From: a bacterium
GTDB lineage: Bacteria > Ratteibacteria > UBA8468 > B48-G9 > DTJG01
DNA length: 52,967 bases
Assembly: GCA_021800535.1 (NCBI GenBank)
Contig: JAJYYV010000010.1
Location: forward strand, 1-52,967
Direction of reading: 5' to 3'
The position numbers and the translations under genes were made by a program. The notes beneath the pieces are model-generated. The model saw only the letters and a program-made list of their open reading frames with translations, searched no databases and was not told the DNA's origin. Shown here piece after piece: positions 2,541 through 52,879 of this stretch; position 1 is the stretch's first letter, and every line of letters starts with the position of its first letter.

Positions 2541-2912
2541 ATGGCTTTTGAAAAATTTTTATATAGTGGAAAAACCTTTAAACCAAGAATAGCAATACGT
2601 CAGAACGGGCAAATAGGATTTAATAAAGGTGCAGAAAAAAGATTTGAATTGAATAAGTACGAATATATAATATTGTATTATGATAAAGAAGAACAAAAAA
2701 TTGGTATACAATTAACAAATGAAGAGAATATAAAAGGAGTAATGAAATTACAAAAAAGACCGTTAAATATAGCAATATCTGCAAAGTCTTTTTTTGAATA
2801 TTACAATATTTCTTATTCAGAAACAAAAATATATGATCCTGAATGGGATGAAAAAAATAAAATGATTATAATCAAACTTAAAAGTACGGAAGGACAACAA
2901 TATGGAGGGTAA
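2541..2912 (+). CDS. Hypothetical head protein of the ubiquitin-like operon, 123 aa
   Basis: First gene behind the promoter at 2494, with AAGGAGG 5 nt before the ATG. Beta-rich in appearance, with a C-terminal IKLKSTEGQQYGG tail. The internal pattern (SAKSFFEYYNI followed by YSETKIYDPEWDEKNKMIIIKL) looks like a conserved small family, but I cannot name a function. Its stop codon lies between the ribosome site and start of the Ubl gene, which argues for co-expression. It ends in Gly-Gly; whether that is meaningful (a second conjugatable tail) or coincidence is open. Confidence 0.75.
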   Translation: MAFEKFLYSGKTFKPRIAIRQNGQIGFNKGAEKRFELNKYEYIILYYDKEEQKIGIQLTNEENIKGVMKLQKRPLNIAISAKSFFEYYNISYSETKIYDPEWDEKNKMIIIKLKSTEGQQYGG

Positions 2913-2913
2913 A

Positions 2914-3408
2914 ATGAAAGAATTTGAGGTGTTTTTTCATGGCATAGGATATGACAACGTGAAACTTATTCGTGTCCAAGAAGATTTCACAGGGATCGAA
3001 GTTGTGAAATTGGCAAAAGAGGCAGGTATAATCGACACAACAGAAGAAGAGTTTGAGGTATTTTTAGAAGAAAAAGATGAACCTCTTGACAAAACTCGTT
3101 CGTTACTTCTTCTGGAAATCAAAGAACGAGCCCATTTTACTTTTCATCACTGTAAGAAAATAGAGGTTATAGTTTCCTATAACGGGACAGACAAAGCAGA
3201 TTATTTTTCTCCACCTACAAAGATTGAAAAAATCTTAAAATGGGCTCTTAAAGTTTTTGAGATATGTGGCGCAGATGCAACAAATAAAGTCTTGCGTACA
3301 GAAAACGGAAAAGAATTGGCAAATAACATACGTTTAGGCTCACTTGTAAACCGCCCTCACTGCTATATTAAACTGTTTTTAACGGCAAAGGTTTTGGTGG
3401 AAGGATAA
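2914..3408 (+). CDS. Ubiquitin-like (beta-grasp) modifier protein, probably tandem
   Basis: I start it at 2914 because GGAGGG sits 5 nt upstream; an earlier ATG at 2902 would put that site inside the gene. The 164-aa product divides into two similar-sized parts of beta-grasp type: about residues 1-68 and 69-164, the second beginning KKIEVIVSYNG. It ends LTAKVLVEG with Gly as the last residue, as needed for E1 adenylation without processing. The next genes encode E2-, JAMM- and E1-like proteins, so the expected role is as the protein attached to targets. The fold assignment rests on pattern and context; the E1/E2/JAMM context makes it strong. Confidence 0.75.
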   Translation: MKEFEVFFHGIGYDNVKLIRVQEDFTGIEVVKLAKEAGIIDTTEEEFEVFLEEKDEPLDKTRSLLLLEIKERAHFTFHHCKKIEVIVSYNGTDKADYFSPPTKIEKILKWALKVFEICGADATNKVLRTENGKELANNIRLGSLVNRPHCYIKLFLTAKVLVEG

Positions 3409-3878
3409 TGGAACCCGATGAAAGTCTCTTCAAAAAACACCTTGAAGAGGCTCTTTTCCAAGAAGGAGTTGAAGAAAATAGATGGGGATTGGTAGGGACC
3501 ATACAAGAAATTAATTGGCCCTATGTAATTCTTTGGTGTAAGTCTACGCCACATGCAGGAGCCGGTTTTAATAAATATTATTTCCGTTTCGATCTTAAGA
3601 ATTATCCGGCAACAGCCCCAACAGCTATTCCTTGGGACATAGAAAAAAACCAAAGATTAGCAAATGAATTATGGCCTTCTTGGTCCGAAAGATTACGTAA
3701 GGTATTTAATTATAACTGGAACAGCGGAAGATCTCTTTATGCTCCTTGTGATCGTTTAGCTATGCCTCTGCATGGTAAATGGGCTGAAAAACATTATACG
3801 TATTGGTGGACTTCAGATTCAACTATAATAAAATATCTTAGATTCTTAGAGAGCCTTTTAAATGAAACCCAAATCTAA
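3408..3878 (+). CDS. E2-like ubiquitin-conjugating protein (prokaryotic UBC fold)
   Basis: 156 aa. The ATG overlaps the previous stop by 1 bp (taATG). Family-like features: YYFRFDLKNYPATAPTAIPWD (about 57-77) corresponds to the UBC strand followed by a Pro-rich turn; LYAPCDRLAM places a candidate catalytic Cys at about residue 114; a WAEKHYTYWWTSDSTIIKYL segment then matches the C-terminal helix region with paired Trp residues. It should accept the Ubl from the E1 at 4334 as a thioester and transfer it to a target. No E3 is seen, as in other short bacterial systems. Confidence 0.8.
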   Translation: MEPDESLFKKHLEEALFQEGVEENRWGLVGTIQEINWPYVILWCKSTPHAGAGFNKYYFRFDLKNYPATAPTAIPWDIEKNQRLANELWPSWSERLRKVFNYNWNSGRSLYAPCDRLAMPLHGKWAEKHYTYWWTSDSTIIKYLRFLESLLNETQI

Positions 3879-4349
3879 TCCTTTACAGCAATTACTTATT
3901 CCTTTTTCTCTTTGGCACTCACTCATTAAAGGTTTACGAAGAAAAAGTCAAGGAATACGTGAAAGCGGTGCCTTTTTGCTTGGAAAAATAGGCGGCAATA
4001 AAGTCAAACTCTTCGTGTTTTATGATAATTTAGATCCAGAATGTTTAGATAGTTGCATAATTTCCTTTGATGGAGCCGGTTTCGTACCTCTTTGGAAAAT
4101 GTGTGAAAAGAAACAGTTACAAGTTTTAGCGGATGTCCATACTCACCTTGGTAAGGTTGCAATTCAAAGTGAAATAGATAAAAAAACGCAATGATAGCTA
4201 AAAAAGGCCATATTGCTTTAATAGTACCTAATTATGCAAGAAACTATTTTCTAAGTTTTAAAGAAATTGGGATTTATGAATATCTTGGAAACAATAAATG
4301 GCAAACGTATGATGTCAAATCCAGGAGGGTTAAATGGACTCTAAAATGA
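3862..4349 (+). CDS. JAMM/JAB metallopeptidase (Ubl protease), frameshifted
   Basis: Frame 1 (3862-4194) carries a complete JAMM signature: Glu34 in ESGAFLL, then H93-T-H95, seven residues, S103-x-x-D106. Directly after D106 comes a run of seven A then C (4180-4187). The frame then ends, but the -1 frame continues as N-A-M-I-A-K-K-G-H-I-A-L-I-V-P to a stop at 4347-4349, which is the normal JAMM C-terminus. So the gene is a deamidase/deubiquitinase-like peptidase broken or joined at an A7-C slippery run. One missing A (mutation or sequencing error) or programmed -1 slippage would each explain it. It overlaps the E2 gene by 17 bp and the E1 gene by 16 bp. Expected role: maturing or removing the Ubl. 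Confidence 0.8.
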
Positions 4350-5722
4350 CTACTGATTTATCAGAAGACAATCTTCATAGATTGGTAAACTTTCTTATAG
4401 AAAATGAAAATTGCAAAACACCAGAAGAAGCAAAAAGAAAATTAGAGAGGTTTAAACTTTCCCTTGTTTGTGGGGAGGAAATTGCAAATACAAAAGCATT
4501 GCAAGCTGCATTGTTAACTGCGATTAATACAGGCAAACGTGCTTTCTTGGGTGGAGTTGAAGTTGTAATGCGAAAAAGAATCAAATCTTTACTTTATTGG
4601 CCCGATACTAAAACACTAAACGATTGTATTAAAAAATTGGGGGGTACATTGGTCAATGAAGCAAGTAAAGATTCAAGTTTTTCTTTGAGTTTTGGTAAAA
4701 CAAACGGCTCTAAAAACTCTCTCCAAGTCGTGTGTAACGGCTGGGTTGGGGGTATTTCAGAATTAAAAATGACGACATCTCTTCCTTTATTGCCAGATTT
4801 TGCTTTGGGAGGTATCGTAGGAGGATCTTTGGGCGTAGCAGGAGCTTTCTTCCGTGTAACTGGTCTGGATAAATTTTTCGGCAGCGATCCTATAGGAATT
4901 TCTTTATGGAAACCCGATGTTAATTGGCTCTTGTCTGAGGCAACCGGCTCTCCATTGAAAAATTTGCCTAAAAATCTATGGATTTTAGGGCTTGGTCATT
5001 TAGGCCAAGCATATTTATGGAATTTTGGGTTATTACTGGATCCATCCATTGCCGGACAGATAAAAATACTGTTGCAAGATTTTGATGTTATAAAAAAAGC
5101 AAATTTTAGTACTGGTTTACTTTCCGAGGATCTATCCGTTGAAAAAAAGAAAACAAGAGTTTGCGCCGAATGGCTTGAACAAAGACAAATTAAAACAATA
5201 ATTACAGAACGACGATTTAATGAAAATACATATAGAGATAATAAAGAACCATTTGTGGCGATTTCTGGTTTTGACAATGCGGAACCCCGTCGACTTATAG
5301 AAAATGTTGGATTTGATTTTATAGTTGATGCCTCTTTAGGTAATTCAATAGATGATTTTGATCGGTTTATGATGTATACATTTCCCGATAATACAGTTAA
5401 AGCCGTTAATATTTGGAAAGAATCTTCTATAGAGAAAAAGAAAAACAATAAAAAATTGATAGAGACATATTTAAAGGAAACAAACAATCCAGAATGCGGT
5501 ATTTTAGCCTCTACACTTGCCGGAAAAGCTATTGCTACTTCTTTCGTTGGTGCAATAGCAGGGGCATTTGTTATAGCAGAAATACTTAAAGGTTTACATG
5601 GGAAAAAACGTTGTGGTTTTTTGCACGTGCATTTACGCGATCTACTTGGTACTCGCTGTGTTTGGTTAGATTCCTGCCAAGAAAAATTTTCTCAAAATGG
5701 TTTTGTTTCAATAAATACTTGA
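4334..5722 (+). CDS. E1-like ThiF-family adenylyltransferase
   Basis: 462 aa. An N-terminal domain of about 210 residues (with AALLTAINTGKRAFLGGV near 58-75) precedes the Rossmann-type adenylation domain. That domain shows G219-L-G-H-L-G224 for ATP, D249/D251/N257 in LLQDFDVIKKAN, and the charged KKKTRV segment near 271. Asp314 lies in SGFDNAEPRR. Cys388 in NNPECGILASTLAGKA is the likely catalytic Cys that takes the Ubl as thioester, followed by a hydrophobic FVGAIAGAFVIAEIL helix. It would activate the C-terminal Gly of the 2914 protein. Last gene of the operon. Confidence 0.85.
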   Translation: MDSKMTTDLSEDNLHRLVNFLIENENCKTPEEAKRKLERFKLSLVCGEEIANTKALQAALLTAINTGKRAFLGGVEVVMRKRIKSLLYWPDTKTLNDCIKKLGGTLVNEASKDSSFSLSFGKTNGSKNSLQVVCNGWVGGISELKMTTSLPLLPDFALGGIVGGSLGVAGAFFRVTGLDKFFGSDPIGISLWKPDVNWLLSEATGSPLKNLPKNLWILGLGHLGQAYLWNFGLLLDPSIAGQIKILLQDFDVIKKANFSTGLLSEDLSVEKKKTRVCAEWLEQRQIKTIITERRFNENTYRDNKEPFVAISGFDNAEPRRLIENVGFDFIVDASLGNSIDDFDRFMMYTFPDNTVKAVNIWKESSIEKKKNNKKLIETYLKETNNPECGILASTLAGKAIATSFVGAIAGAFVIAEILKGLHGKKRCGFLHVHLRDLLGTRCVWLDSCQEKFSQNGFVSINT

Positions 5723-5851: not shown

Positions 5852-7093
5852 ATGCTTGAAGCAAATAAAATAGCGGCTGTTAAATTTGGCATAGACACAC
5901 AACTAATAGAAGAACGAACAAACACCAGAAAAAACATAGAAATTCTGGGGGATGACTTAACATTTTTAAGTATCAGAGAGTTTGAAAGAACAAAACATGT
6001 TCACCGCTTACACCCTTATCTTGGAAAATTCGTTCCCCAGTTGGTAGAGGTATTTCTTAAGAAATATTTTAAAGAAGACGATACTATCCTTGACCCATTT
6101 TCCGGTTCCGGAACAACATTAATAGAAGCAAATATTTTTGGTATGAATTCCATTGGAATAGAATTATCCCCTTTTAATGTCTTAATTCAAGAAGTGAAAA
6201 CAAAAAAATGTAATATTCCAGAAGTTGAAAAAGAAATAAAAGATGCCTTAAATCGTTTGAAACAATTTAGTTATGAATTACAGAATAAAAATCAATCTCT
6301 TTTTAAGAAAAAAACAGTAATATTTAATACTACCAGTGAATATTTAAAAGAATGGTTTTCTCAAAGAGCTTTACAGGAAATCCTGTTTTATAGAAATATC
6401 ATCAAAGACTACAAAAATCAGGATATTTTAAAGATAATTCTTTCAAGATCTACTAGGTCAGCCAGACTTATACCTCATTATGATCTGGCAAGGCCCAAAA
6501 AAGCAGTCAGGGAAAAATACTGGTGTATTAAACACAAAAGATATTGTGAACCAGTCAATGAGGCATTAAAATTTATTGATCGCTACAGTTGGGATACTAT
6601 TTACAGATTAAAAAAGTTTGATAAATTACGAACAGATGCTTTCATTAAAATTATCCAAGGTGATGCCAGAATAGTAAAATTACCTAAGGATCTAAAAATT
6701 AATGGCATATTTACTTCGCCCCCTTATGTTGGAGTTATTAACTATCATGAACAGCACAAGTATGCTTACGAGCTCTTCGGGTTCTCTCGCCAGGATGAAT
6801 TAGAAATAGGGCCTGCTTACAATGGACAAAATGGCAATGCAAAAATAGAATATACACGCGGGATAATAAATGTTTTCAAAAATGTCTCAAAAAATCTTGT
6901 TGACGGAGCTTCAATCTTTATTGTTGCCAATGATAAATTCAATTTATATCCTGGTATCGGGAAAGAATGTGGATTTGAATTAATAGATGTTTTCCAAAGA
7001 CCTGTTTTAATGAGAACAGAAAGAGACTCTAATAAATATTTTGAATCTATATTTCACTTCAAAAAGGGAGAAAAAAATGAGCATATCAATTAA
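5852..7093 (+). CDS. DNA methyltransferase of a type II restriction-modification system
   Basis: 413 aa, amino-methyltransferase class. The SAM-binding motif DPFSGSGTTLIEA (about residues 82-94) comes before the catalytic TSPPYVGVINYHEQHKYA (about 288-305). TSPPY is the target-base motif of N4-cytosine or N6-adenine enzymes. SAM motif first and catalytic motif second is the alpha/gamma-like order. The stretch between them includes a Lys/Arg-rich region likely to recognise DNA. Its end overlaps the endonuclease start by 17 bp, so the two are coupled. Protects the host from the adjacent nuclease. Confidence 0.88.
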   Translation: MLEANKIAAVKFGIDTQLIEERTNTRKNIEILGDDLTFLSIREFERTKHVHRLHPYLGKFVPQLVEVFLKKYFKEDDTILDPFSGSGTTLIEANIFGMNSIGIELSPFNVLIQEVKTKKCNIPEVEKEIKDALNRLKQFSYELQNKNQSLFKKKTVIFNTTSEYLKEWFSQRALQEILFYRNIIKDYKNQDILKIILSRSTRSARLIPHYDLARPKKAVREKYWCIKHKRYCEPVNEALKFIDRYSWDTIYRLKKFDKLRTDAFIKIIQGDARIVKLPKDLKINGIFTSPPYVGVINYHEQHKYAYELFGFSRQDELEIGPAYNGQNGNAKIEYTRGIINVFKNVSKNLVDGASIFIVANDKFNLYPGIGKECGFELIDVFQRPVLMRTERDSNKYFESIFHFKKGEKNEHIN

Positions 7094-7847
7094 ACAAAAA
7101 CAGGAAATTTCATTTTTATTGAAAGAAAAAATCAGAGATAAATTGAAAAACTATTCACCGGAAACTCAAGCAATGCCTTTTCATTTTCGTTTGCTGGGAA
7201 AGGATAGAATGGCATTATACTCATTTATTCATTCTGTAAATACAATGCTCGGGCAGTCAATATTTGAAAAAGTGGCTGAAATTATTGCGGCTCCAAATTT
7301 TGACAAAGCAGCATCCCAATATAATTTTAAAGGACATTTAAGTAATAAAGCTGTGTTAGAAATAGATAAAATAATGCTGAATTTACGAAGTGCAAAAATC
7401 CAAGCAGATGAGCCCGCTGAAAATCAAAGAATAAAAATAGCCGCAAATCAGGGAAAACTTGGAAATTCAAGAAAAGCCAGGATTGATCTTTTTGTGTTTA
7501 AGAAAAACACAGAATATTATTTTGAAATAAAAACAGTTAAACCCAATATTGATGTTTTTACAAAAACCAAGGAAAAATTATTGCAGTGGAAAGCAATGAG
7601 ATATAGTACAAATCAAGATATAGCTGTAAAAGCATATATTTGCATCCCATATAATCCTGAAGCTCCGAATCCTTATAGCCGTTGGACATTACAGGGTTTG
7701 TATGATTTAAAAAATGAAGTTCTGGTGGCAGAAGAATTCTGGGATTTTCTAGGAGGAAAAGGAACATTTGAAGAATTACTGGATATTTTTGAACAAACTG
7801 GGATTGAGTTAAGAGAAGAAATAGATAAAAAATTTGCAGAATTTTAA
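7077..7847 (+). CDS. TdeIII-like type II restriction endonuclease
   Basis: 256 aa from the ATG at 7077, which has an AAGGGAG site 7 nt upstream; an ATG-like start further up would lack one. Features that match the TdeIII family: an N-terminal PETQAMPFHFRLLGKDRMALYSFIHS region, then a PD-(D/E)xK core with R-I-D-L-F followed by Y-Y-F-E-I-K-T (about residues 140-160), then NPYSRWTLQGLYD and a C-terminal EEFWDFLGG motif. The family characteristically cuts GGNCC; I cannot confirm specificity here. Followed by a clear terminator. Confidence 0.82.
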   Translation: MSISIKQKQEISFLLKEKIRDKLKNYSPETQAMPFHFRLLGKDRMALYSFIHSVNTMLGQSIFEKVAEIIAAPNFDKAASQYNFKGHLSNKAVLEIDKIMLNLRSAKIQADEPAENQRIKIAANQGKLGNSRKARIDLFVFKKNTEYYFEIKTVKPNIDVFTKTKEKLLQWKAMRYSTNQDIAVKAYICIPYNPEAPNPYSRWTLQGLYDLKNEVLVAEEFWDFLGGKGTFEELLDIFEQTGIELREEIDKKFAEF

Positions 7848-8123: not shown

Positions 8124-8747
8124 ATGACATATTCATGGATATTAGACGAGGAAAAATATCTCAAGATAGAGGAGGTGAAGATATTGAGGGATACATGCAG
8201 GAAACTAAAACAGGAAGGTATAAAAAGAAATAATCCTGTCTTTGTCAGAGACTGGTTTATGATTGAACTTGGCTTGTTTACAGGATTAAGAGTAGAGGAA
8301 ATGGCTGACTTGAATTGCGGTGATTTGCTTATTGATAATGCACAATCATCTTTAATCGTAAGAAAAGGCAAGGGAAATAAAAAACGTGTAGTCTTGCTAA
8401 ATCCAGTATTCAAAAAAGAATGCCTATGGTTTTTAAAATACAAACAAAGCATTCATCAGGAAATAAATGAAAATTCCTGTGTTCTCTGTTCTATTGAAGG
8501 AAATACATTAACAAAAAGAGCATTGCAAAAAGATTTCAAGAGAACAATGAAAAAAGCAGGACTTCCAGACCATTATTCAATTCATTCTTTAAGACATACT
8601 TTTGGCAGTCATCTTTACAAATCAAGTAATCATAATCTCAGGCTTGTTCAACAACAACTTGGACACTCATCAATAAGAACAACAGAAGTTTATGCAAGCT
8701 TAATGGCAGAAGATACAAAAGAAGCAATAAAAAACTTATACAAATAA
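8124..8747 (+). CDS. Short tyrosine recombinase (XerC/D-like catalytic domain)
   Basis: 207 aa. All six expected catalytic positions are visible: Arg in TGLRVEEM (about 57), Lys in RKGKGNKKR (about 81), H-S-L-R-H in IHSLRHTFGSHL (about 153), Gly-His in QLGHSS (about 175) and Tyr in TTEVYASL (about 184). The usual N-terminal core-binding (SAM-like) domain is absent: only about 30 residues precede the catalytic fold. Such minimal recombinases may be DNA invertases or element-excision enzymes. A GGAGGTGA string inside the gene, followed by TTG, would be an even shorter start, but the first ATG keeps the fold complete. Confidence 0.85.
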   Translation: MTYSWILDEEKYLKIEEVKILRDTCRKLKQEGIKRNNPVFVRDWFMIELGLFTGLRVEEMADLNCGDLLIDNAQSSLIVRKGKGNKKRVVLLNPVFKKECLWFLKYKQSIHQEINENSCVLCSIEGNTLTKRALQKDFKRTMKKAGLPDHYSIHSLRHTFGSHLYKSSNHNLRLVQQQLGHSSIRTTEVYASLMAEDTKEAIKNLYK

Positions 8748-14813: not shown

Positions 14814-16178
14814 ATGCCACTATCTTCCTATGCAAAAACTGGTAATTTTATTGAAGATATAGAAAAAATAGTATATTCGAATGCTTACCGAAGATTGGCC
14901 CATAAAACTCAGTTAATTATTAAACCAACCAGAGATCATTTTAGATCGAGGCTAGTCCACACCGCAGAAGTAAATCATATCGCTTCATCTTTAGGAAAAT
15001 TGCTTGGATTGAATATAGAGTTAATTTCGGCAATAGCTCAAGCACATGATTTAGGGCATACGCCATTTGGACATGCTGGAGAAAGAGCTGTACAAAATAT
15101 TTTAGAAATAGAAATTAATAACCGCTTTCAGATAGAATGTCCTAAGAAGGAACCTGAAAAAATTTTATTCAGAAAAAAGTTATTCCACCATTCTATAAAC
15201 TCATCTAGGATATTAGTTAAAGAGAAAGAATTTGAAGATATATCAATAGAAATTATTAATGGAGTTTTAATGCATAGTTGGAATCCATGGCAGGAGACGA
15301 AAAAAAATATGTTTATTCCTAATACTTATGAAGCACAAGTAGTAGCAATTGCAGATCAAATAGCAAGTATAAATCATGATACCGAAGATATTATTGAAGG
15401 AGAACCTTATACCAAATATACAGAAGAAAGGTTTTCTCAGGAGATTATTAATGGTTTTAAATCTGCGCATAAAGATACTTATAGGCAATTAGAAGAAAGT
15501 ATCCAGCAATTTATTATTGATAAACAAGTTGAACCAGGATATGGGAGGAAAAAAAGAGTTAATTATATCCTTTCAGATATTATAAAAAATACTAAAGAAA
15601 CATTCAAACAAAATAATATAACAAGAAGTGAACAGGCGATAGAATGCCCAATATGCCCTTCTGCAATATGGTCTGAATTTTTAAACTACTATGAGGGTTT
15701 TATTAGGAAATTAATTCAAGAAAAAATTTCTTGGTTCATCGCAAGAGATAATATGGCAAGTGCATTAATTTCTACGGTATTTACGCATATTTGGCCACGA
15801 ATAAGTAGTTCCATTGAAGTTAGCCATAGATCTATACAACCCTCATTATTTTCAAAAGAAGAATTAATAAAAAGCAAATATGAGGAGAAAACTAAATATA
15901 TAGAACACTTTATTTCTTTTTTTAACCAGCACTATATCGATGAAGAAAATGGCATAAATTTTTATGATGCCTATTTGAAAAAAGCAAAAGAGATAAAAAC
16001 CAAACATGAAATATCATTATGGGATCTTAATATTTTGGATCTGAAGCAAAATTTATCTGAAGATGATAAACGGTTATTTACTAAGATAATTGCAATAATT
16101 GATTTTATCGCTGGTTTTACAGATAGGTATTGTCTGGAAATATTTGATGAGGTATATAAAGAATTTATAGTTACATAA
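14814..16178 (+). CDS. dGTPase-like HD-domain triphosphohydrolase
   Basis: 454 aa. The N-terminus has the dGTPase family hallmarks in order: YSNAYRRLAHKTQ (about 22-34), RSRLVHTAEV (about 44-53; metal-binding His), AQAHDLGHTPFGHAGERAV (about 79-97; HD pair and HTPFGHxGE motif), and AIADQIASINHDTED near 180 (the last metal-binding Asp). It would hydrolyse dNTPs to nucleoside and triphosphate. Family members act in nucleotide homeostasis and, in several bacteria, in starving phages of dNTPs. The gene is divergent from the small-gene chain. Known family role; substrate not deducible here. Confidence 0.85.
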   Translation: MPLSSYAKTGNFIEDIEKIVYSNAYRRLAHKTQLIIKPTRDHFRSRLVHTAEVNHIASSLGKLLGLNIELISAIAQAHDLGHTPFGHAGERAVQNILEIEINNRFQIECPKKEPEKILFRKKLFHHSINSSRILVKEKEFEDISIEIINGVLMHSWNPWQETKKNMFIPNTYEAQVVAIADQIASINHDTEDIIEGEPYTKYTEERFSQEIINGFKSAHKDTYRQLEESIQQFIIDKQVEPGYGRKKRVNYILSDIIKNTKETFKQNNITRSEQAIECPICPSAIWSEFLNYYEGFIRKLIQEKISWFIARDNMASALISTVFTHIWPRISSSIEVSHRSIQPSLFSKEELIKSKYEEKTKYIEHFISFFNQHYIDEENGINFYDAYLKKAKEIKTKHEISLWDLNILDLKQNLSEDDKRLFTKIIAIIDFIAGFTDRYCLEIFDEVYKEFIVT

Positions 16179-24392: not shown

Positions 24393-25556
24393 TTATTGTT
24401 TAAGTCTTAATTTATTGAAAAACAAATAACTTTCCCTTTTGATTTCTGCAAGTTCTGTTTCTTCAAATTTTATATTAATTGGTACAATCCTTGATTTATG
24501 TTTTGAAAAAAATTCTTCAACAATTCTTGAAGCATTTGGATGAATAATTAGCATGAATATTTTCTTTCTATCTAAAGCATTACTGAATACATCCCTGATG
24601 ATTTCATCACGAAAAGAATATCCAATAATAATACAGCCATCTACATCATTTAATAATACATCCCGGAATAATCTAAATAATTCTTTGAAAGGTGTTTTTG
24701 AAAAAACATCTCCTTTTTCAGCCGGATAAATAAGTAAACTTTCAGGATTAACATCTGCTGCTGAAAATTCAGATACTTGGGCAGGGATACGGCAGATATT
24801 CCCTTTAATTTCATATAAATCGCATGAACCATGTATTTTCACAAGTTTAATTGTTTTTTCATCAGTGTTGGTGAGAAATTCCTGGGGGGACCAAATACCT
24901 TCTGGGTGTTTTGTAGAATGTTTAAATCCACAAATCAATTCTGTTTCTGTTAATCTGCAATAGTTTTCAATAATCAGGTCATAGTTTGTGGTAAAAACCC
25001 AAGTACATGGTTCTATAGACCTAAAAAGAGAATCAAAAAATGGAACAAGTAAAGTTTTAATTTTAATTTCATTAAAACTCCAACACCTATTGGCTATATA
25101 TTTCTTTATTGTTCCTTTTAATTTAGTTATCTTTTTTTTAAAAGCATCCCTTCCTTTTGCATCTACTAATGATTTTCTTGATGAGGAATTTGTGTAAAGT
25201 GGAAAGTTTTGTGAGAAAAACCGTTTAGTACCCATATCATAGTTGACATAGCTAATAAGATAAATGAAACTATCTAATTCTCTTTCCTGTAAATTGATAA
25301 ATTCCAAGATGGATTCTAAATCTTCATTTTGTAATAATATTTTTACTTCTTCTGTTCCAAAAGAGTTTGGAGCGTTATTTGAGAACCCATAAAATTTTGA
25401 ACGCAAGATTAAATCAAATATATCAGAAAATTCATTTTGGAGGGAATGAACATGATTGTAAATATCTGCCAAAAATTCTTTCATGGTGGGAAGTCCAAAT
25501 GGCTTTAAAAATCCTGCTCCTGTGAAAAGGCAAATTTTGAATTTATTGTTATTCAT
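24393..25556 (-). CDS. SIR2-like domain protein (probable NAD-consuming defence effector)
   Basis: 387 aa. The nucleotide-binding start is ICLFTGAGFLKPFGLPTMKEF (G13-A-G15). TTNYDLIIENYC near residue 190 carries the Asn/Asp of SIR2-type sites, VKIHGSCDLY near 240 supplies the catalytic-type His, and DGCIIIGYSFRDEIIRDVFSNAL near 320 is the second Rossmann strand. This is the SIR2-like (not deacetylase) form found in antiphage systems, where it depletes NAD. A HEPN-like gene is divergent next door and a HerA-like ATPase lies 1.2 kb away on the same strand. No direct operon with either. Confidence 0.78.
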   Translation of the reverse strand: MNNNKFKICLFTGAGFLKPFGLPTMKEFLADIYNHVHSLQNEFSDIFDLILRSKFYGFSNNAPNSFGTEEVKILLQNEDLESILEFINLQERELDSFIYLISYVNYDMGTKRFFSQNFPLYTNSSSRKSLVDAKGRDAFKKKITKLKGTIKKYIANRCWSFNEIKIKTLLVPFFDSLFRSIEPCTWVFTTNYDLIIENYCRLTETELICGFKHSTKHPEGIWSPQEFLTNTDEKTIKLVKIHGSCDLYEIKGNICRIPAQVSEFSAADVNPESLLIYPAEKGDVFSKTPFKELFRLFRDVLLNDVDGCIIIGYSFRDEIIRDVFSNALDRKKIFMLIIHPNASRIVEEFFSKHKSRIVPINIKFEETELAEIKRESYLFFNKLRLKQ

Positions 25557-37944: not shown

Positions 37945-39255
37945 ATGGAAAAAACAGTTCTATCTCCGGAAATACAGGAAAGGGATTTATCTCTGGATTT
38001 TGATGACACCTGGGTTTTGCACCAAAGAGTAAAATATTATAAAATACAATTCTGGATTCAATTGCTCTTTGACAAGGTGTTAATGGAGATAGAACACGGG
38101 GAAAGCCTCCAAAAAAAGGAGGCAAAAGTGACAGTCTATAAACAGGCAAGAAGCAGATTTTATTTTTTGAATATAACCTATCATGGGAAAAGAATAAGAT
38201 TAAGCAGCAGGTGTGAATTGAAAAAAGATGCCCAGAAATTAGGTGTTATTCTTCTTTCAAAGCTAATGCAAAAAGAAAATTTCCCTGGTTCTATCAATTA
38301 CACAGAACAGACCCAGGAAAATGCTCCTGTATTTGAAAAAGCCTCTTTCCAGTATATTCAGGAGGAATGCAAGGGTAAGAAAATTGCATGGAAAAGAGAG
38401 GATTTGTGCCATAGAGACCTTTTATCATTCTTTGGCAAATACCATCTCAATGAAATTACCCCTCAACTAATATCAAGATGGATGCATAGTGAAAGTTCAA
38501 GGATAGTTAGGGGAAACAAGACAATTTCAGCAAGAAGTGTTAATTATAATCTTGGCTATCTCAAACGCTTTTTCAACTATGCTATGAATATACAGGAATG
38601 GATAAAGGAAAATCCTGCCTCAAAAATAAAACCTTTGCCTATCTCAAGAAAAGAGAACAGGGTATTAAGTGAGGAAGAGGAATCAAAACTTCTTAATGCC
38701 TGTAAACATCCATGGTTTGAAAGAGTTATTGTCTTTGCTATTGAAACCGGATTAAGAGTAGGCGAGATTGCAAATTTAAAGACAAAAGACTTTCATCTTG
38801 ACTATGGGATTCCACATTTCAGGATTCAGAGAGAGAAAAACAAGGTTATAACTGAATTTCCTCTTGCATCTGAGAGGTTAAGCAGGATAATAAAAGAACA
38901 AATGTCATACCAGCATGAGGATGAACATTTTTTTGTTGATGACAAGGGAATGCTCTTAAACATAGACAAAATGGGAAAACGTCTTGAGAAAACGGCACAG
39001 CTGGCAGGCATAGAAAAAATAACCTTCAATATTCTCAGGAAAACCTTCTGCAGCAGGCTAAACTGGCTTGGATGCAACAAGATGTTTGTAGAGTATTTAA
39101 TGGGCCATACTGTAAAAGGAATAGAGTCTCATTATCTTGCAAATAACCTTAAAGGGGTGTATGAAGAATTACTGAAAATAGAAGATAGAAATAAAAAAAA
39201 TGTCATACCCCTGTCATACCTGAGTGAAAATAAAGAAAAAATCTGTTCTTTATAA
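37945..39255 (+). CDS. int: Island tyrosine integrase
   Basis: 436 aa. The N-terminal arm-binding-like domain (VTVYKQARSRFYFLNITYHGKRIRLSSRC, about 53-85) is followed by a SAM-like core-binding domain (about 120-215) and the catalytic domain: Arg in ETGLRVGEIANL (about 270), N-I-L-R-K in TFNILRKTFCSRL (about 362; Asn replaces the usual first His), LMGHT (about 386) and Tyr in ESHYLAN (about 396). A start at residue 47 (MEIEHGESLQ) would also give a complete protein. It lies 176 bp from tRNA-Ser and must integrate and excise the island. Confidence 0.88.
   Translation: MEKTVLSPEIQERDLSLDFDDTWVLHQRVKYYKIQFWIQLLFDKVLMEIEHGESLQKKEAKVTVYKQARSRFYFLNITYHGKRIRLSSRCELKKDAQKLGVILLSKLMQKENFPGSINYTEQTQENAPVFEKASFQYIQEECKGKKIAWKREDLCHRDLLSFFGKYHLNEITPQLISRWMHSESSRIVRGNKTISARSVNYNLGYLKRFFNYAMNIQEWIKENPASKIKPLPISRKENRVLSEEEESKLLNACKHPWFERVIVFAIETGLRVGEIANLKTKDFHLDYGIPHFRIQREKNKVITEFPLASERLSRIIKEQMSYQHEDEHFFVDDKGMLLNIDKMGKRLEKTAQLAGIEKITFNILRKTFCSRLNWLGCNKMFVEYLMGHTVKGIESHYLANNLKGVYEELLKIEDRNKKNVIPLSYLSENKEKICSL
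39202..39220 (+). other. Probable integrase arm-type sites, right end
   Basis: GTCATACCCC at 39202 and GTCATACC at 39213, again an 11-bp step, inside the 3' end of int. Same word and spacing as 231/242 near the left att site. Arm-site role inferred. Confidence 0.5.
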
Positions 39256-39264
39256 ATGATGAAA

Positions 39265-39302
39265 ACCTTTGTAGAAGATTGCAAATCGGAGGGGGTGGGA
39301 TT
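39265..39302 (-). repeat. Duplicated tRNA-Ser 3' tail, inner copy
   Basis: 38 bp identical to 39409-39446 (tRNA-Ser acceptor/T-arm 3' strand plus 22 bp flank) and to 18-55. On the tRNA strand it begins at the T-loop (AATCCC). It directly follows the structured core at 39303. Confidence 0.85.
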
Positions 39303-39408
39303 GTGCTGAAATTTTCAGGATGTATTACTGACGCACACTCTCCGTCTTCTTTGGAAAGCAATCTGTATGGCAAAAACAGACGGAGTGGTGAACCCATGGT
39401 TCAAACCC
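39303..39408 (-). repeat. tRNA-linked structured repeat core, tRNA-Ser copy
   Basis: 106 bp on the minus strand, nearly the same as 52419-52523 beside tRNA-His. It starts GGGTTTGAACC (complementary to the tRNA T-arm), contains GAACC-ATG-GGTTC, a CTCCGTCT/AGACGGAG stem, and CTGAAA/TTTCAG, then ends CAGCAC before the duplicated tail. See findings. No coding capacity. Confidence 0.8.
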
Positions 39409-39490
39409 ACCTTTGTAGAAGATTGCAAATCGGAGGGGGTGGGATTTGAACCCACGGTATCGCCTTGCGACGATACAACGGATTAGCAAT
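39392..39490. repeat. Right attachment-site repeat (attR) of the island
   Basis: 99 bases identical to 1-99, covering 17 bp of the structured core, 22 bp of flank and the 3' 60 nt of tRNA-Ser. Crossover must lie within this block; the T-loop is the usual place. Confidence 0.9.
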
Positions 39491-39521
39491 CCGCCGCACT
39501 AGGCCTCTATGCGACCCCTCC
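39431..39521 (-). tRNA. tRNA-Ser(GCT)
   Basis: Acceptor stem GGAGGGG/CCCCTCC with G73, anticodon loop TTGCTAA (anticodon GCT), a long variable arm (TTGTATCGTCGCAAGGCGATACC region, class II) and T-arm GTGGG-TTCAAAT-CCCAC. CCA is not encoded: G73 is followed by ATT. It reads AGC/AGT codons. It is the intact tRNA restored at the island's right end. Confidence 0.95.
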
Positions 39522-39559
39522 ATATTTAACTTGCAATATATAATATCATAAAAAGGAAA

Positions 39560-52320: not shown

Positions 52321-52395
52321 GGTGGCTATGGTGTAATGGCAGCACGAGAGACTGTGGCTCTCTTAGAGCGGGTTCAAATCCCGTTAGCCACCCCA
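52321..52395 (+). tRNA. tRNA-His(GTG)
   Basis: G-1 and GTGGCTA/TAGCCAC acceptor stem, C73, encoded CCA at 52393-52395. Anticodon loop CTGTGGC gives GTG; D-loop TGGTGTAATGGCA; T-arm CGGG-TTCAAAT-CCCG. The extra G-1:C73 pair is diagnostic for tRNA-His. Its tail region is followed by the structured repeat. Confidence 0.95.
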
Positions 52396-52418
52396 TAGTT
52401 TTTCTTCTTTGAAATAAC
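52377..52418 (+). repeat. tRNA-His 3' tail plus flank, first copy
   Basis: 42 bp from the T-loop (AATCCC) to GAAATAAC, identical to 52524-52565. Contains the tRNA acceptor 3' strand, CCA and 23 bp of flank. Period 147 bp. Confidence 0.85.
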
Positions 52419-52523
52419 GGGTTTGAACCATGGGTTCACCACTCCATCTGTTTTTGCCATACAGATTACTTTCCAAAGAAGATGGAGAGTGTGCGTCAGT
52501 AATACATCCTGGAATTCCAGCAC
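52419..52523 (+). repeat. tRNA-linked structured repeat core, tRNA-His copy
   Basis: 105 bp nearly identical to the 39303 core, opening GGGTTTGAACC. The CTCCATCT/AGATGGAG stem and the CTGGAA/TTCCAG palindrome differ from the Ser copy by paired changes that keep pairing. Confidence 0.8.
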
Positions 52524-52596
52524 AATCCCGTTAGCCACCCCATAGTTTTTCTTCTTTGAAATAACGGGTTTGAACCATGGGTTCACCGCTCCATCT
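52524..52596 (+). repeat. Second tRNA-His tail copy plus a partial core
   Basis: 52524-52565 repeats the 42-bp tail; 52566-52596 restarts the core (GGGTTTGAACC to CTCCATCT) and then diverges into T-rich sequence. So the array is one and a half units. Confidence 0.8.
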
Positions 52597-52879
52597 TATT
52601 TTTTTAAAAATTGTTTGAAAAATTCTCAAATTGAATTGCTGATTACAAAAAGTGTTGAAACTTATTTCACCGAAAAGGGAATCACAAAATCAAAAAAATG
52701 GACGGAAATAAAAAATTTGACTACGCCCTCTATAAAAAAATATAATTATATTTTATTTAATTTTATGTAATCATTTGTAAACTAAAAAAATTTGCAGAAA
52801 TTATAACAAGGGTTGCAATAAAAATAATAAAAAAAGACAATTTTACACTTATTCTGTATTACGAAGAAAAAGGTAAAAT
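52597..52879. other. AT-rich gap with a possible gene remnant
   Basis: A plus-strand open frame of about 55 codons (LKNSQIELLITKSVETYFTE and on to a stop at 52770) is protein-like but has no start codon except one inside the repeat. It could be the tail of a gene cut by past integration at tRNA-His. No other feature seen. Confidence 0.3.

Follow-up and report, generated by a model that had tools for sequence, protein, structure and literature searches.

Repeats that copy the end of the gene in front of them have been known in Escherichia coli for decades (Egan and Landy 1978 and Rudd 1999, as cited in PMC8144298). That source calls them tRNA-linked repeats (TLRs) and counts 22 copies at ten loci, each sharing 18–19 identical base pairs with the end of the tRNA or 5S gene upstream, and gives no known function for those in tRNA operons (PMC8144298). 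At tyrT/tyrV, a 178-bp repeat including the tRNA 3′ end corresponds to the rtT RNA (RF00391), in whose Rfam model an inverted T-stem pairs with the second tail; rtT has also been described as similar to elements belonging to BIMEs (PMC2965389). In E. coli K-12, the inverted piece is likewise locus-specific, reading GGGGAAGG at tyrT/V, GCAGG at lysV and GAGGAT at proK, and no TLR was found at leuQPV, glyVXY, argX-proM, metZWV or proL in the stretches read.

The units described here, from Omnitrophota, share much of this plan. As with TLRs, they lie directly 3′ of a tRNA, terminate in a repeat of its 3′ end and occur in tandem, and a structured core is closed by a stem of locus-specific inverted T-stem and second tail. 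They differ in belonging to another phylum, in their extent (about 24 of 43 tRNAs against ten E. coli loci), in having at least four core types, in a spacer that is a short conserved motif rather than the terminator-like hairpin of E. coli lysV and proK, and in insertions inside T-loops.

Elements mobilized by tyrosine integrases also offer a close parallel. Williams, in 2002, is said to have distinguished sublocation classes of such elements, some of which use the tRNA T-loop and carry a tRNA tail. T-loop entry, a carried tail that would restore the tRNA, tail duplication and tandem accretion are common to these elements and to the present units, but the latter are gene-less, only 120–150 bp long, have the same core at many tRNAs and carry an inverted T-arm copy. 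REP and BIME sequences, which are Y1/RAYT-mobilized, are likewise short, palindromic, non-autonomous repeats; by contrast, the units here have a strict tRNA T-loop site with a tail copy, and no Y1 transposase was found in the window's genome. CRISPR arrays and casposons resemble the units in leader-like proximal addition and in a palindromic repeat between inserts, and casposons also use tRNA 3′ ends. Here, however, the inserts belong to the same few families, the repeats are tRNA-specific, and several core-rich genomes gave no Cas1.

Results

Units behind tRNA-Ser and tRNA-His

The window, that is, the whole 52,967-nucleotide stretch of DNA analysed, holds two copies of one core. The first follows tRNA-Ser (GCT), encoded on the minus strand at 39430–39522 (ARAGORN; RF00005, 55.2 bits). 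The 3′ end of this gene from the T-loop AATCCC onwards, together with the spacer TTTGCAATCTTCTACAAAGGT, forms the 38-nt proximal tail copy (39409–39446), which recurs identically as the distal copy at 39265–39302, ending just short of an inverted T-arm. The intervening type-1 core (39303–39408; 124.3 bits with covariance model R2) opens with the inverted T-arm copy GGTGGGTTTGAACC (39398–39411, minus strand), whose locus-specific stem GTGGG is supported by the sequence and by a covariation test. The second copy follows tRNA-His (GTG) on the plus strand (52322–52395; ARAGORN; RF00005, 61.2 bits). Here, the proximal tail copy, consisting of the tRNA 3′ end and spacer (52377–52418), is identical over 42 nt to the distal copy (52524–52565); the inverted T-arm copy TAACGGGTTTGAACC (52415–52429) was recognized from the sequence and flank permutation tests, and the core (52419–52523; 120.1 bits with R2) is 94% identical to that at Ser. 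Repetition at His extends beyond the second tail into the core, over 79 nt at 96%. An older-core remnant is present at 52566–52602, where a second inverted T-arm is followed by the opening stretch of a type-1 core (positions 1–37, matched at 92%) before unique sequence begins.

The earlier note had placed the same core of roughly 105 bp behind tRNA-Ser (minus) and tRNA-His (plus), flanked by 38- and 42-bp tail duplications that both begin at AATCCC of the T-loop, and these statements hold in coordinates and in identity. Its further observation that the inverted piece is complementary to each tRNA's own T-arm, with one base missing, is likewise borne out at His and at Ser.

Occurrence in the genome and its relatives

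Read along the tRNA strand, a unit comprises the tRNA tail, which starts in the T-loop with AATCCC and extends to the 3′ terminus, a spacer of some 10–28 nt that often resembles AGCAATCTTCTTTGAA, the inverted T-arm copy, a core of about 105 bp and the tail again, with the truncation point of the distal tail differing from locus to locus. The cassettes encode no gene. Searching the 2.0-Mb, Candidatus Omnitrophota-labelled genome of the window (G000) with the core returned 12 matches, and every full-length copy sat behind a different tRNA (His, Ser-GCT, Ser-GGA, Glu, Leu, Cys, Ala and Pro); the Pro locus has two full 142-bp tandem units and a partial third. In the sister genome (G001), the type-1 core is found behind Gly, Ser and Asp. 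When the 3′ flanks of all 43 detected tRNAs of G000 were read, cores appeared behind about 24. Over the genomes compared, a locus holds one to three units, with near-identical tandem copies. At least four core types are represented: type 1, the Ser/His core, at 9 tRNAs; type 2 (GAGCGAAGTAAG...GGCCGACCCCGAG...GAGGGGCGC) at 12; type 3 at Val-tac and Lys; and type 4 at Ala-cgc. Several further tRNAs are followed by spacer and inverted copy without a core, as in a decayed unit, and about a dozen lack any part of the cassette. The core hairpins covary, with pairing that survives changes on both sides.

Covariance models built for the type-1 and type-2 cores were used on the relatives, most of the genomes compared being draft metagenome-assembled ones. 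Type 1 is confined to its own genus, in two of the 28 genomes of the order, with a Gly unit in G018 as a distant relative (19 bits). Type 2 is present in 16 of the 28 genomes of the order and in 20 of 35 of the GTDB phylum, often in tandem. Of the type-2 cores inspected, 80 of 89 follow an intact tRNA and share its strand, and at 61 loci the first unit begins 26–39 nt from the tRNA end. The others comprise one core behind a tRNA-Asn with a group I intron, one behind a copy of a Val tail, five inside tRNAs, and two in tandem at a single locus (L210), where no tRNA lies within the stretch read and a Ser tail follows the first core. The type-1 model also found some type-1-like cores away from tRNAs. 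The expectation that every core copy adjoins a tRNA is borne out by nearly all copies: 87 of the 89 type-2 cores are joined to a tRNA or to a tRNA tail, the exceptions being the two at L210 and a minority of type-1 cores.

Of 113 own flanks, 65 hold a second tail copy (at least 16 of 18 positions), compared with 6 of 1559 flanks of other isotypes; the tRNA-linked pattern is not due to chance. The same comparison bears on the idea that contigs were misjoined at repeated cores. The genomes are drafts, the cores are long enough to confuse short k-mers, and one locus has a tRNA of one isotype followed by the tail of another; yet chimeras predict mismatched tails where own-tRNA matches prevail, and the closed E. 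coli K-12 genome and many independent assemblies show the same plan, so that an assembly artefact is barely credible. The mismatched locus (L217, G017:C15:8300-9300) has a Gly-tcc tRNA with a tRNA-Val sequence as its second tail copy, and it reflects either inter-locus transfer or an assembly join.

Some neighbouring features were recorded in the course of these searches. The tRNA-less type-1-like cores of G001 (L012–L015, L186–L188) sit in intergenic MITE-like repeats with inverted ends, for example ATAAGTTTGGATT...AATCCAAACTTAT. Two other type-1-like cores (L179, 439–544, and L180, 302–398, both on the minus strand) lie just upstream of tRNA-Leu genes, and the bases at their core starts repeat the tRNA 5′ end (GGTATAGCCGAAGTGGCGG and GGATGGCGG), possibly as a 5′ counterpart of the tail copies. 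In G000, a group I intron (RF00028, 100.7 bits) occupies 250–492 of locus L183 (G000:C25:50000-51200), immediately preceding the 3′ half of a tRNA-Asn with a type-2 unit behind it, and a 6S RNA (RF00013, 57.2 bits; L021, 1040–1214) lies directly upstream of a tRNA-Tyr/tRNA-Gly pair.

The inverted copy follows the adjacent tRNA

The T-loops of these tRNAs come in several variants (TTCAAATCC, TTCGAATCC, TTCAAGTCC, TTCAACTCC, TTCGATTCC and others). For the 43 tRNAs of the window's genome, inverted matches to the own flank summed to 402, compared with 352.6 ± 5.4 for permuted flanks. A second test covered 113 tRNAs, 70 of whose flanks contain an exact inverted octamer, with 20,000 permutations: the octamer was that of the tRNA's own T-loop class in 61 of the 70, against a permutation mean of 17 and a maximum of 31. 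Leaving out the commonest T-loop class gave 36 against 7 by permutation. At Cys and Leu-caa, moreover, the T-loops differ between the sister species and the inverted copies change in step. The inverted copy is thus specific to the adjacent tRNA. This locus matching, which is present in E. coli too, is a strong constraint on any mechanism.

Exchange of units and entry at the T-loop

At orthologous tRNAs of the two sister species, core type or occupancy differs. Taking G000 first and G001 second, His carries type 1 in the former and type 2 in the latter, as does Cys; Gly-gcc has none and type 1; Ala-tgc has type 1 and none; and Asp has type 2 then type 1 in G000 and type 1 then type 2 in G001. 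The order of the copies at two of these loci can be followed through their spacers. At Asp, the distal copy of G000 resembles the proximal copy of G001 (spacer identity 0.93, compared with 0.62 for proximal against proximal), and at His the distal copy of G001 is closer to the G000 copies (0.75 against 0.54). This distal–proximal correspondence at His and Asp means that a new unit entered between the tRNA body and the older unit, bringing its own tail, spacer and inverted copy.

At eight sites in five genomes, a T-loop is interrupted by a core and the tail has not been restored. Seven of these interruptions are preceded by a tRNA body: that of Ser-cga in four species belonging to two families, that of Val-tac, and that of Val-gac at two sites in G017, where the contig end cuts one of them; the eighth (L255) is preceded only by a Val T-arm copy within a type-4-like repeat. 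Downstream, five of the eight have an intact tRNA of matching isotype, the contig ends first in two, and L255 has none. These interruptions identify the T-loop as the entry point. The interrupted tRNA-Ser(cga) is not a recent transposition intermediate, because it is conserved across two families. In the four genomes concerned (L251–L254, in G007, G009, G014 and G016), it has a left hairpin, CTGAAAT...GGATTTCAG, and it may have become an independent structured RNA.

A mechanism consisting solely of target-site duplication at an empty site was set aside, since distal copies often hold the start of a core and since the copies differ at His and Asp.

The tail-copy pairs are nearly identical in most loci, as tandem duplication with gene conversion would also produce. 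An origin free of transposition, through slippage at the T-arm palindrome and gene conversion between tRNA flanks, would accommodate this near-identity, and the palindromic ends would favour slippage. It does not readily account for four unrelated core types at one position, for their swaps at orthologous tRNAs, for insertions inside T-loops or for the distal–proximal orthology at His and Asp, and we regard it as highly improbable. Core similarities within the genus are about equal for orthologous and non-orthologous pairs (0.785 and 0.779), so that orthology adds none, and a comparison bearing weakly on concerted evolution gave 0.801 within the same genome against 0.785 for the same tRNA within the genus. 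The earlier suggestion of a tiny non-autonomous element that targets the T-loop, on the other hand, is well supported by the interrupted tRNAs, the cassette exchange at orthologues and the tRNA-proximal accretion.

Predicted folds of tRNA and unit

We also considered what the units might do as RNA. Folding tRNA and flank jointly at 66 loci gave a mean predicted gain of 7.2 kcal/mol, compared with 1.6 with shuffled flanks; these are equilibrium folds, computed without processing or co-transcriptional order. The fold predicted for the Ser unit preserves the cloverleaf, its inverted copy being paired with the second tail. For the His unit, pairing is predicted between the second tail and the acceptor strand of the tRNA, and in such predictions the two tail copies are in competition for the tRNA body. 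The proposal that a read-through transcript folds back in cis-antisense on the tRNA 3′ end is possible: the joint-fold gain above shuffled flanks is in its favour, while at Ser the inverted copy is predicted to pair with the second tail. A regulatory switch would be permitted by these folds.

A fuller version of the same idea makes the unit an RNA-processing or regulatory cassette, in which read-through from the tRNA promoter would yield a T-arm mimic, the 3′-processing enzymes would release a small RNA, and the two tails would compete. The modelled fold gain is what such a cassette would predict, as are the conserved strand and 26–39-nt distance, the covarying core stems and the resemblance of the Ser fold to Rfam RtT. 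In E. coli, moreover, the rrA/B/F TLRs, which are linked to 5S genes, are transcribed, with processing close to the repeated tail (PMC8144298), yet the phenotype claimed for the tyrT TLR was later ascribed to another reading frame (PMC8144298). Among the Omnitrophota, many tRNAs lack a unit, sister species exchange or lose units, and distal units decay; nor does a processing role need a stem that copies the local tRNA. As the primary explanation, a processing cassette seems unlikely, but it is compatible with a mobile origin and the two are not mutually exclusive.

The integrated element beside the Ser unit

The first 99 bases of the contig (window 1–99) match 39392–39490, comprising the tRNA-Ser 3′ half with its tail and the start of the core; the intervening 100–39391 looks like a 39-kb integrated or circular element. 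It encodes three tyrosine recombinases (at 8124, 12549 and 37945) and two ATPases, one HerA-like (21113) and one of the AAA type (35442). The same stretch contains a complete Bil anti-phage operon (BilA, BilB, BilC and BilD; 2902–5722; PADLOC E values of 1e-34 to 1e-129) and other defence-type genes (5852–7847, 14814–16178 and 24393–25556), namely a type II methyltransferase with a restriction enzyme, a dGTPase and a SIR2 protein.

One of the recombinases (37945–39255, plus strand; PF00589, 2e-22) ends 10 bp from the distal Ser tail, which raises the prospect that the units are attachment-site debris, attP fragments that remained after tyrosine-integrase islands or phages had repeatedly integrated at tRNA genes and been deleted again. 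Tail duplication at tRNA 3′ ends marks such integrations, and type-1 relics flank an island in the window. The recombinase belongs, however, to the larger element, whose terminal repeat takes in the anticodon side of tRNA-Ser and thus has a different junction. No integrase was found within the 300–420 bp read at the other two dozen loci, a scan of the genome contigs gave no relatives of the Ser-adjacent integrase, and the type-2 motif was in no viral contig searched. Tandem units of 125–145 bp, and identical cores at many tRNAs, would not be expected of remains from unrelated islands either. We consider attachment-site debris distinctly unlikely.

Discussion

The reading that best accommodates these observations, to which we assign a probability of about 0.58, is that the units are elements of the TLR/rtT type, non-coding and non-autonomous, whose insertion at the T-loop leaves the tRNA restored. 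An element of approximately 120–150 bp would insert in the T-loop of a tRNA gene, at about position 55–57. Its left end being a copy of the tRNA 3′ tail, insertion would rebuild the tRNA and push the old tail downstream; the newest unit would then adjoin the tRNA, and older units would degenerate, beginning farthest from the gene. Together, inverted T-arm copy and core hairpins could close the unit into a hairpin at the DNA or RNA level, and this hairpin would be the probable recognition signal for a mobilizing enzyme or for the tRNA 3′-processing machinery.

As for the mobilizing activity, we infer that the units are moved by a DNA recombinase acting in trans. Y1 transposase (PF01797) was found in none of G000, G001 and G006–G010, each with 5–23 type-2 cores and several of them incomplete. 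Cas1 (PF01867) gave no match in the core-bearing G000, G001, G008, G017–G019 and others, again with incompleteness as a caveat, and reverse transcriptase (PF00078) was seen in two of the 28 genomes of the order and not in G000. In this order-wide search, the distributions of the three enzymes do not track the cores; the window's genome is about 91% complete, and absence of an enzyme there is not proof.

Comparison with rtT supports a shared plan. Like TLRs, the units lie downstream of a tRNA, with 38- and 42-bp tail identity in the window, and the rtT closing stem of inverted T-stem and second tail has its counterpart in the complementarity of the window units and in the Ser fold. The RF00391 model matches the E. 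coli tyrT units and none of 13 Omnitrophota loci, even at E values up to 1, and the Omnitrophota core models gave no significant match to rtT. Kinship between the two would thus be one of architecture and of short shared motifs (GATGAGAACC...GGTTCGAG in L227, and GAGCGAAG). At this level, the Omnitrophota units are a real, non-random and far wider version of the known but unexplained E. coli TLRs.

More tentatively, and at less than even odds, the units may represent a gene-less class of mobile element specialized to the tRNA T-loop, whose left end, a locus-matched tail together with the inverted T-arm, regenerates the host tRNA at insertion and of which the E. coli TLRs are relics. If this is true, the inverted copy implies a fold-back or hairpin-copying step that rewrites the end of the element for each new tRNA. 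The observations of most value are the tRNAs interrupted in their T-loops, the accretion of units next to the tRNA and the match of the inverted copy to its locus. E. coli TLRs have stood since 1978 without an explained origin or, in tRNA operons, a function; with a lineage in which cassettes follow most tRNAs, cores can be exchanged, some copies interrupt T-loops and sister species are not alike in occupancy, the origin of TLRs becomes testable.
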